DNA of 15,932 bases from Comamonadaceae bacterium (GTDB lineage Bacteria; Pseudomonadota; Gammaproteobacteria; Burkholderiales; Burkholderiaceae). The notes under the pieces are model-generated. The model made no database searches. It was given only the letters and a program-made list of their open reading frames with translations, and was not told where the DNA came from. The position numbers were made by a program, and so were the translations under genes. The stretch is from positions 1-15,932 of the forward strand of contig CANNNB010000028.1 of the NCBI GenBank assembly GCA_947505995.1. Reading direction: 5' to 3'. Positions 10,881-15,892 of this stretch are shown here, piece after piece (positions within the stretch are counted from its first letter, which is position 1; each line of letters starts with the position of its first letter).

Positions 10881-11264
10881 ATGACAAATTTCACCAAGGT
10901 GGTGCTGTTCACTGACACCGATGGCAAGGCCAAATTCAAGGAAGTAAATTTGGCATTCAGCCAGGGCACACCGCAGAGCCAATTGTCTGACATCTTTTCA
11001 GCGGAAGGCTATCAATTGCGCTTTAGCCCCGTTGGATTTCGCAGTCAATTTCACGTCACCGGCAAGCCTCAATGGGTCTTCATTTTGTCAGGACAAATGG
11101 AAATTGGTTTGCAAGACGGTACATCTCGAATTTTTTCTGCAGGCGACCATTTCTACTCTGCAGACACCTTGCCTGAAGGGTCAACTTTTGATGCATCAGT
11201 GCATGGGCACTGGAGCCGTCAGGTAGGGGAGCAACCCTTGAGAACTTTGTTTCTGAAGGATTGA
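10881..11264 (+). CDS. Small single-domain cupin protein
   Basis: The 127-residue protein is a one-domain cupin. The central part FHVTGKPQWVFILSGQMEIG (57-76) and FSAGDHFYSADTLPEGSTFD (85-104) correspond to cupin motifs 1 and 2. The usual H-x-H pair of motif 1 is reduced to a single H58, so metal binding and catalysis are doubtful; a sugar-binding or sensing role is equally possible. It follows the GntR gene by 15 nt, preceded by AGAGA, so it is likely the third gene of that unit. It is convergent with the flavin-reductase gene 20 nt further on. No hairpin with a T-run was seen between them. Its function in the aldonate cluster is unknown. Confidence 0.75.
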   Translation: MTNFTKVVLFTDTDGKAKFKEVNLAFSQGTPQSQLSDIFSAEGYQLRFSPVGFRSQFHVTGKPQWVFILSGQMEIGLQDGTSRIFSAGDHFYSADTLPEGSTFDASVHGHWSRQVGEQPLRTLFLKD

Positions 11265-11284: not shown

Positions 11285-11899
11285 TCAGTTTGAAGGCCGA
11301 TGCAGTTTGAACAACTGTTCTGGCCCAATTGAAAAATAATCGGCAGGCCCTCCGCCGCGAAGAATGTGTTGTGCATTGGCTGTGTCGTAAACCCCGTTAT
11401 TCAAGAGCTTTTCATCGATGTGAACACCAATCACTTCACCAAAAACCATCCAGGTCTGAAGTGACTCACCTTGCAGATTTTTCATTTGCAAAATTTGGGT
11501 GCACCGACATTCAAAGCTCACAGGGCTTTCGGCCACTCGCGGCACCTTGACCAATCTTGATGGCGCTGTTGACAGCCCTGAAATTTCAAATTCATTGACC
11601 TCAGGGGGAACTGCTTTGCAGGTCTGGTTCATGGCTTCAACTTGTGGGCGTGTAACCAAGTTCCATACAAATTCACCAGTGGCCTCAATGTTGTTGAGTG
11701 AATCTTTGCGTCCAATGCTTGAGAAGCCGATGAGTGGCGGGGTGTAATTGAAGGCATTGAAGAAGCTGTATGGCGCTAAGTTCAAGACGCCATCTGCGCT
11801 TTGTGAGGAGATCCAGCCGATAGGGCGTGGGCCCACAATGGCATTGAATGGATCATGTGGAAGTTGGTGTCCAAGACGGGGTTCGTAAAAATAGGTCAT
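11285..11899 (-). CDS. Flavin-reductase-family protein (FMN-binding split barrel)
   Basis: The 204-residue protein belongs to the flavin reductase-like family with an FMN-binding split-barrel fold. The signature PRPIGWISS lies at 24-32, followed by NLAPYSFFNAF (40-50) and PPLIGFSSIGRKDSL (54-68). Members bind FMN and either reduce free flavin or use it for small redox reactions. It starts 3 nt after the photolyase stop, so it is the third gene of the DUF2256-photolyase unit. Supply of reduced flavin to, or maintenance of, the flavoenzyme photolyase is an attractive but unproven inference. Operon placement could also be incidental. Confidence 0.87.
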   Translation of the reverse strand: MTYFYEPRLGHQLPHDPFNAIVGPRPIGWISSQSADGVLNLAPYSFFNAFNYTPPLIGFSSIGRKDSLNNIEATGEFVWNLVTRPQVEAMNQTCKAVPPEVNEFEISGLSTAPSRLVKVPRVAESPVSFECRCTQILQMKNLQGESLQTWMVFGEVIGVHIDEKLLNNGVYDTANAQHILRGGGPADYFSIGPEQLFKLHRPSN

Positions 11900-11902
11900 T
11901 TT

Positions 11903-13444
11903 TTAAATATAAGGGCTGGTCAGAAGTTTGGCTTGCGCTGCAATGGCGCTTTTTTCTTCATTCGAAAGACGATTGAGATTTTTCAACTGCATGAGCATAC
12001 GCGGATTTTTGGCCAATACATCAACATGTCGGTTGAGGTAATCCCAATAGAGGGTGGTGAAAGGGCAGGCTGATTCGCCAGTGGACAAAGCTGGATTAAA
12101 ACGACAGCCCTTGCAATGGTTGCTCATGCGGTCAATGTATTTGCCGCTGGCCACATAGGGTTTGCTGGCCATCACGCCGCCATCTGCAAACTGGCTCATG
12201 CCCAATGTGTTGGGCAGTTCCACCCACTCCACCGCATCGACATAAACACCCAAGTACCAGGCATGAACTTCTTTGGGCACCACGCCCAGCAACAGCGCAT
12301 AAAGCCCCGTGACCATCAGGCGCTGAATGTGATGGGCATAGCCATGGTTCAGCGTTTGAGAAATGGCGTCGCGCAAGCAAGCCATTTCTGTTTCACCTGT
12401 CCAGTAAAATGCGGGCAGGTGTGCTTTGGCCTGCATTGCATTGCGCTCTAAATACTCTGGCATTTGCGTCCAGTAGATACCGCGCACGTATTCTCGCCAT
12501 CCTAAAATTTGACGAATAAAGCCTTCAACCGCTGGCAGCGGCGCATGACCTTGTTCGTAGGCTTTTTCTGCAGCACTGACTACTTCTTTTGGATTGAGCA
12601 GTTTCAAATTCAAGGCGCTGGCGATGTGCGAGTGATACAGCCAAACCTCACCCTCCCACATCGCATCTTGGTACAAGCCAAAGGAGGGCAGTCGGTGCTG
12701 AATGAAGCTGTCAAGTGATTCAAGGGCTTGCGTGCGTGTGACGGGCCAGCCAAAGCTGTTCAAATTGCCTGGGTTTGCAGCCAGCTTCTCATTGACCAAG
12801 TTCATCACATCTTGTGTGATGCTGTCGGGTTCAAATCGCAAGGGTTTGGGCAACAAGCCCGGGCCTGCCTTGCCAAAGCTGCCGCGATTTTCTTCGTCAA
12901 AGTTCCATTGCCCGCCAATGGGCTTTTTGCCATCCATCAGAATGCCAGTTTTTTGACGTAACTCGCGGTAGAAAAATTCTTGGCGCAACTGTTTGCGACC
13001 CTTGGCATGCTCAGCAAACTCGCGCACCGTGCTAAAAAAATGCGCGTCTTCGCGGACTTCCAATGGCAGGCTGTTCTTCTTGGCAATGGTTCGCAAACTT
13101 TGCAACACACGCCACTCTCCAGGTGCCGTCATGACAATTTGTTGCGGTTTGGTTTGTTGGATGACTTTGTCGAGCTCACCCGCCAAGGTGCCAACATTGT
13201 CTGCATCGTTAAGTTGGCTGTAATGAAGTGGCCAAGCTTGGTCTTTGATGGTTTTAGCAAAGTGGCGCATGGCACTTAGGAACAGGGTGCTTCGCTGTTT
13301 AGAGGATGCGACATGGGTTGACTCTTCCATGACCTCGGCCATCCAAATGGCGTCTTGTGCAGGGTCAAAGTCAGTCAGGGCACTGGCGTCTAAATTCAAT
13401 TGATCACCCAAAATCACGACCAAATGACGTAAGGATTTAGCCAT
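11903..13444 (-). CDS. FeS-cluster bacterial photolyase/cryptochrome ((6-4) photolyase type, PhrB/CryB family)
   Basis: The 513-residue protein is a member of the FeS-BCP (CryPro) class, whose characterised members repair UV (6-4) photoproducts (Agrobacterium PhrB) or act as cryptochromes (Rhodobacter CryB). The N-terminal antenna domain starts LRHLVVILGDQL. The FAD domain holds EGFIRQILGWREYVRGIYW. Four cysteines, C356, C444, C447 and C460, have exactly the spacing of the PhrB [4Fe-4S] ligands (350, 438, 441, 454). At the same offset of six, HHIQR (H371, H372, R375) and W348, W396 and Y397 match PhrB's active-site histidines and electron-transfer residues. Known members carry FAD and a lumazine antenna. 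Its ATG overlaps the end of the DUF2256 gene by 8 nt, with GAGAG just upstream. Confidence 0.95.
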   Translation of the reverse strand: MAKSLRHLVVILGDQLNLDASALTDFDPAQDAIWMAEVMEESTHVASSKQRSTLFLSAMRHFAKTIKDQAWPLHYSQLNDADNVGTLAGELDKVIQQTKPQQIVMTAPGEWRVLQSLRTIAKKNSLPLEVREDAHFFSTVREFAEHAKGRKQLRQEFFYRELRQKTGILMDGKKPIGGQWNFDEENRGSFGKAGPGLLPKPLRFEPDSITQDVMNLVNEKLAANPGNLNSFGWPVTRTQALESLDSFIQHRLPSFGLYQDAMWEGEVWLYHSHIASALNLKLLNPKEVVSAAEKAYEQGHAPLPAVEGFIRQILGWREYVRGIYWTQMPEYLERNAMQAKAHLPAFYWTGETEMACLRDAISQTLNHGYAHHIQRLMVTGLYALLLGVVPKEVHAWYLGVYVDAVEWVELPNTLGMSQFADGGVMASKPYVASGKYIDRMSNHCKGCRFNPALSTGESACPFTTLYWDYLNRHVDVLAKNPRMLMQLKNLNRLSNEEKSAIAAQAKLLTSPYI

Positions 13445-13616
13445 GATTTGGACTCTCGAGAACAGCGGTTGATTTTTTCTTTCTGCAAGCGTCAGAGCAG
13501 TACAAAACCTGTTCCCAATTTTTGGCCCAGGCTTTGCGCCATGACATGTCTCGCCCGCATACGTTGCAGGGTTTGCTGGGGAGGCTTTTTTTGTTGCCTT
13601 TGAAAGTGCTTTTCAT
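13437..13616 (-). CDS. DUF2256 zinc-ribbon-like small protein
   Basis: Translating the minus strand from ATG 13616 gives a 59-residue protein ending in TAA. It has a C-x2-C (C17, C20) and a C-x3-C (C40, C44) separated by a tryptophan- and lysine-rich middle (SWRKAWAKNWEQVLYCSD). This is the pattern of DUF2256, a family of 40-60-residue proteins of unknown function; the four cysteines should bind zinc. The last 8 nt overlap the start of the photolyase gene, so the two are translationally coupled. A good promoter lies 46-73 nt upstream, but no clear Shine-Dalgarno is seen. The basic, Trp-rich make-up suggests nucleic-acid or protein binding, perhaps as a photolyase accessory (inference). Confidence 0.88.
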   Translation of the reverse strand: MKSTFKGNKKSLPSKPCNVCGRDMSWRKAWAKNWEQVLYCSDACRKKKSTAVLESPNHG

Positions 13617-13661
13617 GGGGCTATTGTGGCGTTAAGCGCCGTGAGTTTGCTGGCCTGCTGG

Positions 13662-13689
13662 ATAATCTCCCTAGTCAATAAATTGTCAA
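13662..13689 (-). promoter_or_regulatory. Sigma70-type promoter of the DUF2256-photolyase operon
   Basis: On the minus strand a perfect -35 TTGACA (13689-13684) is followed after 16 nt by GATTAT (13667-13662) as -10. The start of transcription would fall about 35-40 nt before the DUF2256 ATG. TTGAC recurs 11 nt downstream (TTGACA then TTGACT), a tandem repeat that could be part of an operator overlapping the promoter. Confidence 0.6.
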
Positions 13690-13709: not shown

Positions 13710-13994
13710 ATGTCCAAAGCGATTGAAAACACCACGCCCCTCAGCCCTGGGGATGTGTCTGCTGTGATTCAAATGGCATGGGAGGACCGAACCACCTTTG
13801 AGACAATTTATGAAAGAACGGGCGTCACAGAACCCGGCGTGATCAAAATCATGCGTGCCGAATTAAGTTCAAAGTCTTTTAAAATGTGGCGAGCCAGAAT
13901 GCGGGGCAGGGTGACCAAGCACCGTGAACTGCGCAGCCCCGACATGAAGTTTGATGATCGGGCCATTGCCGATCACAGACGTGCTAATTGCTGA
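13710..13994 (+). CDS. TIGR03643/DUF2805 small conserved protein
   Basis: The 94-residue protein matches the TIGR03643 (DUF2805) family of short bacterial proteins of unknown function. Family features are the conserved IQMAWEDRTTFETIY block (20-34), a helix-turn-helix-like GVTEPGVIKIMRAEL (38-52), SFKMWRARMRGRVTKH (56-71) and a short charged tail. The spacing of the helices recalls small DNA-binding proteins, but no function is established. ATG 13710 is preceded by AGGA at a rather long distance. A GTG at 13626 would add 28 residues with no family match that cross the divergent promoter, so it is rejected. The gene is divergent from the DUF2256-photolyase unit (93 nt between starts) and may share its control. 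It is convergent with rhlE. Confidence 0.85.
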   Translation: MSKAIENTTPLSPGDVSAVIQMAWEDRTTFETIYERTGVTEPGVIKIMRAELSSKSFKMWRARMRGRVTKHRELRSPDMKFDDRAIADHRRANC

Positions 13995-14005
13995 TGAATG
14001 CTTGA

Positions 14006-15892
14006 TTAGCGGCCGAACGAGCGGCCACCACCACCACCACCGTTACCGCCGCCATAGCCACCGCCACCGCCACCGCCACCGCCACCGCCTCTACGGCCAC
14101 CACCACCACCACCATTGCCACCGCCAAATCCACCGCCACCGCCACCACCGTGACGGCGAGGGCCGCCGCGGCCACTGCCAGCCAAACTGTCGATACTGGT
14201 GCGAGTTGGGTCAGGTTGACCGCCACCGCCACCGCTGTTGCGACGAGGTGCGCCTTGGCGTGCAAATTGATTTGTCATGAGTGGGTCGATGTGACGTGGC
14301 AATTCATCACCACGTGGGCCACGGTCATGGTCTCTGTCCAAGTTGCGGTCGTTGGGCCTGTCATTGGGACGATCGTTGCGACGATCACCTCGCTCATTAA
14401 AACGATCTGATGGTGGTCCATCAAAATTTCTTTCGCCGCGATCTTGGCGATCAGTGCGTGGGCCTTGAGCAGGTCCGCCACGGCGTGAAGGGGGAGGGCC
14501 GTTGCGTGATCGGCCTGCGCTGCCTTCTGGGCGAGTTTGTCCACCACCACCACCACCACCACCAGAGCGAGCTCCACGTCCACCACCACCGCCTTCACCT
14601 GCAGCACCTTTTGTTTCGCGAATACGTTGCATCATGTCTGAGCGTGCTGCTTTGGCTGCTGCTTGCATCACATCACGGCTAGGTGGACGGCCTGCACCAC
14701 CCCACAAAGTTTGACGTCCCATTGCAATTGGCTCAGGCTTCTCGCCCGGCTCAGGCCCAAAGCCTTCCAAAATTTGGACTGGAATTTCTTGTTTGGTGAA
14801 GCGCTCGATTTCCATCATGAAACCTTCTTCGTCCAAGCACACCAAGCTCACCGCTTCGCCACTTGCACCAGCACGTCCCGTGCGGCCAATGCGGTGCACG
14901 TAGTCTTCAGACACGTTGGGGATTTCGTAATTCACCACATGCGGCAAGTCTTCGATGTCAATGCCGCGGGCTGCAATGTCAGTAGCGACCAAGACGCGAA
15001 TGTCGCCACTCTTGAATCCTGCCAAAGCTTGGGTGCGAGCGGTTTGGCTCTTATTGCCATGCAATGCCATGGACTTGATTCCGTTTTTGGTGAGATAGTC
15101 GGCCACGTTGTTCGCACCAAACTTGGTGCGTGTGAAAACCAGTACTTGGCTCCAGTTGTGCTGGTTGATGATGTGCACCAGCACTTCTTTTTTCTTGCCA
15201 CGACCCACGGGGTGAATGACTTGAGAGATGCGCTGCACGGTTGTGTTGCTGGGTGTCACTTGAATGCTCTGAGGATTTTTCAAGAGCGTCGCGGCAAGAT
15301 CGCGAATTTCATCGCTGAAGGTGGCTGAGAACAACAAGCTTTGTTTGTCTTTTGGCACCAAGGCCAAGACTTTTTTCACATCATGAATGAAGCCCATGTC
15401 GAGCATACGGTCTGCTTCGTCCAAGACCAAAATTTCAATGCTGGACAAATCGAGCAGGCCCTGGCCTTGCAAGTCGAGCAAGCGGCCTGGCGTGGCCACC
15501 AAGACATCGACGCCGCGTTTGACGCGATCGACTTGGGGTTTCATGCCAACGCCACCAAACACAACGGTGGACTGCAGGCTGAGGTATTTGCCGTAATCTT
15601 TGGCGGACTCTTCAATCTGGGCTGCCAATTCGCGTGTGGGCGTTAGCACCAGCGCGCGAATGGCCTTGCCGCCAAATTTGTTCCTACCGGCTTCTGTCAA
15701 GCTCAGCTTGTGCAAGATGGGCAGCATGAATGCGGCTGTTTTGCCGGTGCCAGTTTGTGCGCCAGCCAACAGGTCGTGACCTGCCAAGACGATGGGTATC
15801 GCTTGAGCCTGCACGGGCGTTGGAGTGTCGTAGCCTTGCTCTTGCACGGCCTGCAGAATGGCCGGGGCCAAATTCAATTCTTCAAATTTCAT
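14006..15892 (-). CDS. rhlE: DEAD-box ATP-dependent RNA helicase RhlE with long Gly/Arg-rich tail
   Basis: The 628-residue protein is an RhlE-group DEAD-box helicase, which unwinds short RNA duplexes in ribosome assembly, RNA decay or cold adaptation. All motifs are intact: Q motif around Q28, motif I AQTGTGKT (45-52), PTRELA (85-90), TPGR (134-137), DEAD (158-161), SAT (189-191), HGNKSQ (278-283), the TDIAARGID block (304-312) and HRIGRTGR (333-340). From about residue 430 the protein changes to a tail of roughly 200 residues. The tail has poly-Gly runs up to 11, RGG elements and an Asp/Arg/Asn-rich part with DRPN repeats (505-525). The tail is probably disordered and RNA-binding. The ATG at 15892 begins MKFEELNL as usual for RhlE; no clear ribosome-binding site is seen. 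Gene neighbours to the right lie outside the window. Confidence 0.95.
14024..14150. repeat. Low-complexity CCACCG/CCACCA tract coding poly-Gly of rhlE
   Basis: A run of CCACCA and CCACCG hexamers, broken by CCAT, CTCTACGG and AAAT, covers about 125 bases. On the minus strand it encodes the GGT/GGC glycine runs at residues 582-624 of RhlE. Mixed codon use keeps it from being a perfect microsatellite, but slippage or unequal exchange in 3-nt steps would change tail length without breaking the frame. Confidence 0.8.
14539..14592. repeat. Second glycine-coding trinucleotide tract in rhlE
   Basis: Eight consecutive CCA triplets (14541-14564) are followed by a shorter CCACCACCACCG block near 14579-14592. 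On the minus strand these code the poly-Gly runs around residues 433-451 of RhlE. The near-perfect (CCA)8 is the most slippage-prone tract in the window. Confidence 0.75.

Follow-up and report, generated by a model that had tools for sequence, protein, structure and literature searches.

Does a photolyase have a small protein partner that is made together with it? Teaching presents photolyases as enzymes that act alone; the question is raised by a contig of a Comamonadaceae bacterium (GCA_947505995.1, CANNNB010000028.1; the window, that is, the whole stretch of 15,932 nucleotides that we analysed). According to its open reading frame listing, the genes for a DUF2256 protein, an FeS-BCP photolyase and a flavin-reductase-like protein follow each other in this order on the minus strand (Table 1). 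The original prediction, a tight operon of the three, had been drawn from a 59-aa DUF2256 gene with C-x2-C and C-x3-C pairs, its overlap with the photolyase start and a flavin reductase 3 nt further on. Its gene boundaries were confirmed, and the small protein is a clear member of PF10013.

Table 1. Positions of the features discussed, numbered from the first nucleotide of the window.
Feature	Position	Strand	Remarks
DUF2256 protein (PF10013), 59 aa	13437..13616	-	ATG start; Pfam 66.9 bits vs cut-off 25
FeS-BCP / prokaryotic (6-4) photolyase, 513 aa	11903..13444	-	ATG start; PF04244 252.5 bits vs cut-off 22.1
Flavin-reductase-like protein, 204 aa	11285..11899	-	ATG start; PF01613 77.7 bits vs cut-off 27
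Overlap of DUF2256 stop and photolyase start, 8 nt	13437..13444	-	
Gap between photolyase and flavin reductase, 3 nt	11900-11902	-	
DUF2805 / TIGR03643 protein, divergent from DUF2256	13710..13994	+	94 aa from ATG 13710, start judged likely
Conserved block in the divergent intergenic region	13646..13674	-	alignment of L001-L007 and window
Cupin-like gene, convergent with flavin reductase	10881..11264	+	Pfam matches below cut-off
DEAD-box helicase, very long Gly-rich low-complexity C-terminal tail	14006..15892	-	

The photolyase gene is classed as an FeS-BCP by its PF04244 domain, its full-length similarity to known enzymes, its cysteines and its His/Trp residues, from which repair activity and cofactors are predicted. 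Over its length the protein resembles solved prokaryotic (6-4) photolyases (E 3e-159 to 4e-155 for the best six sequences), PhrB and CryB being among the solved proteins aligned with it. All four [4Fe-4S] cysteines are present (C356, C444, C447 and C460), and H372, W348 and W396 align with PhrB H366, W342 and W390, described in the available part of PMC4619345 as the catalytic histidine (H366) and the electron path (W342, W390). The closest known enzymes are thus PhrB, CryB, Cc(6-4)PL and SePhrB. Unlike these four, whose descriptions mention no DUF2256 partner in the sections available, the window photolyase has genes for DUF2256 and a flavin reductase directly beside its own.

The 8-nt overlap of DUF2256 and photolyase is also present in seven related loci (L001-L007) and, because it is repeated there, we do not take it for chance; translation of the two genes is probably coupled through it. 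Among the best 80 of 228 loci, the nearest relatives of the window DUF2256 are Comamonadaceae and Limnohabitans contigs, which suggests a freshwater setting.

The window DUF2256 protein carries C17-x2-C20 and C40-x3-C44, overall a C-x2-C-x19-C-x3-C pattern, and these four cysteines are invariant in our alignment A1 of 54 sequences. Twelve residues are invariant in all (L12, P13, K15, C17, C20, W26, R27, W30, W34, C40, S41 and C44), and the family core reads LP.K.C..C.RPF.WRKKW...W..V.YCS..CR. The family is large, with at least 7,989 clustered proteins matched and with Bacteroidota, Gemmataceae and Pseudomonadota among the names; the literature naming it assigns it no function in the portions available. 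DUF2256 is similar to YacG (PF03884), a zinc-finger inhibitor that binds DNA gyrase and whose older name we take to be DUF329, in its size, its C2C2 pattern and a weak HMM and fold likeness. DUF329 and DUF2256 are placed together with MYND and HIT fingers in the TRASH zinc-finger clan, according to the available part of PMC4047054. Among relatives of DUF2256, the HMMs of YacG, MYND and HIT are matched weakly: the YacG profile matched two of the four relatives scanned (E 0.02-0.03; 14.4 and 15 bits, cut-off 25.5) and gave no match to the window protein at E 0.01. Modelled alone, DUF2256 reached pLDDT 74 and pTM 0.46, and the top Foldseek match of this model was gyrase-bound YacG (4tma, E 0.49), with nothing at E of 0.001 or less. 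The likeness lies below every significance threshold; it agrees with an analogy and proves nothing, and the C-x2-C-x19-C-x3-C spacing, the WRKKW core and the photolyase neighbourhood are DUF2256's own features in comparison with YacG. The comparison with YacG could make DUF2256 a finger that binds proteins and acts on an enzyme working on DNA.

We sampled 249 Pseudomonadota genomes for DUF2256 (up to 28 candidates per genome scored, a few genes possibly missed) and for PF04244. DUF2256 was found in 73 genomes and PF04244 in 76, both in 64, DUF2256 only in 9, PF04244 only in 12 and neither in 164. PF04244 occurs in 64/73 genomes with DUF2256 versus 12/176 without it (Fisher odds ratio 97, p 7e-37, with kinship ignored). 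To take kinship into account, we compared independent pairs on a tree of rpoB domains from 120 of the genomes, 85 of them positive and 35 drawn from the 164 double negatives: about 6 pairs were concordant, 0.3 opposite and 8.6-9.9 without a difference in the second trait. The sign test corrected in this way gave a median p of 0.06 in one direction and 0.03 in the other, with a range of 0.008 to 1 over random pairings, so that the co-occurrence keeps its direction and becomes borderline. The photolyase domain PF03441 was also considered as a genome-level partner, being present in 72 of the 73 DUF2256 genomes but also in 157/249 overall, and was rejected, as kinship-corrected pairs give no signal.

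Exceptions are found on both sides. Of the 12 among 76 genomes that carry PF04244 without DUF2256, 11 have a photolyase with all four cysteines and the remaining one, G244, a truncated photolyase, which rules out that the DUF2256-free carriers are a cluster-less type. Searching these 12 genomes again with a 43-aa motif query yielded no accepted DUF2256 (best matches E 0.003, with an internal stop, and E 0.009, overlapping a long unrelated ORF). Among the nine genomes with DUF2256 and without PF04244, a photolyase lies within about 5 kb in one only, G186, where a DASH cryptochrome is directly followed by DUF2256. Outside this sample, 14 named control genomes were scanned: Caulobacter vibrioides and Synechococcus elongatus gave matches to both DUF2256 and PF04244, Haloferax volcanii to PF04244, and PF10013 was not matched in E. 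coli.

Whether DUF2256 genes lie mostly away from FeS-BCP genes, the point on which the original prediction was to be judged, has a divided answer: of the 64 genomes that have the two genes, 33 show them at most 3 kb apart, and the other 31 show them farther apart or on different contigs. The 33 adjacent pairs come in three arrangements, DUF2256 before the photolyase (10), DUF2256 after it (16) and opposite strands (7). On a quick tree of 75 photolyases plus that of the window (G244 left out, G245 on a very long branch) these arrangements correspond to 8, 9 and 4 changes, respectively, and the photolyases from genomes without DUF2256 occupy 11 scattered rows, with 11 changes. Adjacency has been re-formed repeatedly and in different orders, and no other result of this analysis speaks as strongly for a functional tie between DUF2256 and photolyases.

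The same tie is seen in the 80 Burkholderiales-type loci, a non-random set made of the best 80 of 228 by closeness to the window DUF2256. In 75/80 of them a photolyase-superfamily gene lies within 500 nt of DUF2256: FeS-BCP only in 27, a PF00875/PF03441-type gene only in 29 and both in 19, which makes 46/80 for FeS-BCP and 48/80 for the PF03441 type. Three of the five loci without such a gene are at contig edges. FeS-BCP is absent from 16/80 loci that extend at least 3 kb after DUF2256, and in 14 of the 16 genomes concerned PF04244 is matched at another place. The photolyase-like PF00875/PF03441 neighbours at L017:5183-6706, L022:4426-5979 and L041:6165-7718 score below every NCBIfam cut-off and possibly represent a divergent, uncharacterised photolyase group. 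Eight plasmid stretches were examined out of 93 matching records. A photolyase stands beside DUF2256 in three (Vibrio, Sphingomonas, Cupriavidus), and none was found within 6 kb, or up to the record end, in those from Pantoea, Agrobacterium, Acinetobacter, Thioclava and Deinococcus. On the Cupriavidus plasmid (L168), DUF2256, the photolyase and the excinuclease gene cho are consecutive genes; genes for a lipocalin, chalcone isomerase and CFA synthase lie close by. DUF2256-photolyase fusions were sought with region 1-58 of a fused chain against 5.8 billion proteins, by a method that needs shared 5-mers, and of two candidates none was significant, which speaks weakly against such fusions.

DUF2256 also persists where the photolyase no longer has its cluster ligands. 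In the family of G245 (61 genomes), 12 of 37 PF04244 proteins are without all four cluster cysteines (loci L252-L256, L288-L293 and L213). DUF2256 is carried by 12/12 of the genomes concerned, which are related and do not count as 12 events, by 20/25 with cluster cysteines and by 11/24 without a PF04244 match; in one of these 11, G254, a photolyase truncated at the end of the contig lies beside DUF2256. In the twelve genomes with cysteine-less photolyases DUF2256 was never seen near the photolyase: in five the two genes share a contig and are all more than 190 kb apart. The link of DUF2256 is specific neither to FeS-BCP nor to the Fe-S cluster. These twelve photolyases moreover form a natural set for studying loss of the cluster.

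A further member of the DUF2256-photolyase neighbourhood is the divergent DUF2805/TIGR03643 gene, which the original prediction did not list and whose mechanical ORF starts at GTG 13626. It occurs in 26/249 genomes; PF04244 is present in 25 of these and DUF2256 in 23, and in 6/26 PF04244 lies within 3 kb of the DUF2805 gene. The conserved block upstream of DUF2256 is possibly part of a putative shared promoter/operator for DUF2256 and DUF2805. No lead was found in the portions of the TIGR03643/DUF2805 literature available.

What, then, does DUF2256 do? The original prediction saw in the three genes a possible maturation, loading or reactivation kit, with the flavin-reductase-like protein as a partner. 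This protein belongs to PF01613, which predicts a flavin reductase, and it might keep the photolyase FAD reduced, as its 3-nt spacing in the window and the gene order kept in six close relatives would suggest. Such a kit is barely credible in view of its distribution, since a flavin reductase is adjacent in just 6/80 DUF2256 loci of the best 80 of 228 (L001, L002, L003, L005, L006 and L007; L004 ends too early to show it) and at 1/112 FeS-BCP-centred loci, 111 of which extend at least 600 nt beyond the photolyase match. The single exception comes from the window's own clade, and in PhrB the FAD is photoreduced via W342/W390 (PMC4619345, part available). Adjacency being limited to this clade, the flavin reductase is a lineage-specific local neighbour outside the DUF2256-photolyase unit; of the tight operon of three, the DUF2256-photolyase pair stands, with its 64/73 genomes and 33/64 adjacent cases, and the third gene does not. 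The cupin-like gene is kept beside the flavin reductase in the same six relatives. The other half of the kit would make DUF2256 a factor that matures FeS-BCP or loads it with its [4Fe-4S] cluster, FAD or antenna. This fits with the four cysteines of DUF2256 and the tight operon, with the requirement of the cluster for PhrB stability (PMC4619345) and with the E. coli-made SePhrB that was without antenna, a defect remedied there by a pigment-synthesis gene (PMC9178010). However, SePhrB from E. coli contained about 3.5 Fe and 4.2 sulfide as well as FAD and had 6-4 repair activity (PMC9178010), active Cc(6-4)PL (PMC12082625) and PhrB (PMC4619345) were obtained from the same host, and the excerpts available of these three papers describe such FeS-BCPs as soluble, cofactor-loaded and active; PF10013, as said, was not matched in the E. 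coli control genome. Because E. coli-made enzymes are loaded and genomes with cysteine-less photolyases keep DUF2256, and given its place beside DASH and PF03441-type genes, we consider a loading factor very unlikely on this indirect evidence, and the kit finds no support in this comparison. A role of DUF2256 at native expression levels may be compatible with both the E. coli and the cysteine-less data.

Two other explanations were considered. DUF2256 might serve on its own in light or UV stress, with promoters and islands in common with photolyases but without ever meeting them, in line with its location away from the photolyase in 31/64 genomes, the five plasmid stretches without an annotated photolyase nearby, the Cupriavidus island and the conserved intergenic block facing DUF2805. 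Co-regulation by itself does not readily account for the specific tie to photolyases at 75/80 loci (best 80 of 228), nor the overlapping frames and the three recurrent orders, and we hold it to be rather unlikely. Alternatively, DUF2256 might be a finger that binds nucleic acids, either to regulate the photolyase operon or to attach to damaged DNA by itself. This would agree with the basic WRKKW core and basic tail, with a DUF2256 gene that is often first or divergent, and with a weak PHROGs match of three DUF2256 proteins to the zinc region of an HNH endonuclease family (E 0.0002-0.0016). It is quite unlikely, as DUF2256 follows the photolyase in 16/64 genomes or lies far away, and no DNA-binding family was found above cut-off in the DUF2256 proteins scanned.

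We therefore favour, with a probability of roughly 0.45, a small zinc C2C2 treble-clef protein that acts as an accessory of photoreactivation, most likely as a photolyase adaptor. Cells would produce DUF2256 along with a photolyase, in most cases the prokaryotic (6-4) enzyme. The invariant Trp/Arg/Lys core of DUF2256 would dock on the photolyase, or on DNA beside it, and assist the enzyme in the cell in locating lesions, staying on them or releasing them. Docking is modelled here on that of YacG on gyrase, and zinc as the metal, the treble-clef fold, the docking and the effect on repair are predicted. When DUF2256 and the photolyase were folded together in one chain, with three DUF2256 alignment rows, no confident docking was obtained (DUF2256 pLDDT about 62-71, linker disordered). 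The three invariant tryptophans, spaced i, i+4 and i+8, might form a docking or electron-relay face. It is tempting to extend the adaptor to a dedicated photolyase auxiliary of several phyla, which would bind several classes (6-4 with or without cluster, PF03441-type and DASH) and set their activity in the cell; we regard this wider proposal as doubtful.

The claim that the association is undescribed agrees with our survey: no description of a DUF2256-photolyase link was found in the DUF2256, COG4338 or FeS-BCP literature, as far as the available portions go. COG4338 itself returned no literature, and for PF10013, IPR017136 and PIRSF037205 the titles suggest that the strings mean other things. 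Published photolyase operons include the two-photolyase operon of Synechococcus PCC 7335 and the nudix-photolyase operon of Prochlorococcus, and PMC9649867, in the part available, knew of only two earlier reports. Co-transcription of a photolyase with another gene is described for these and predicted for the operon proposed here; DUF2256 is not named in that part of PMC9649867, and a DUF2256 neighbour is the window's feature.

In summary, the DUF2256-photolyase association is real and recurrent, and DUF2256 is a good candidate for an overlooked photolyase helper. If DUF2256 is indeed a dedicated auxiliary, photoreactivation would involve several proteins, in contrast to the single-enzyme reaction described in textbooks. 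Such an accessory role could explain differences in repair between the tube and the cell, and would give a role to an orphan family with thousands of members.
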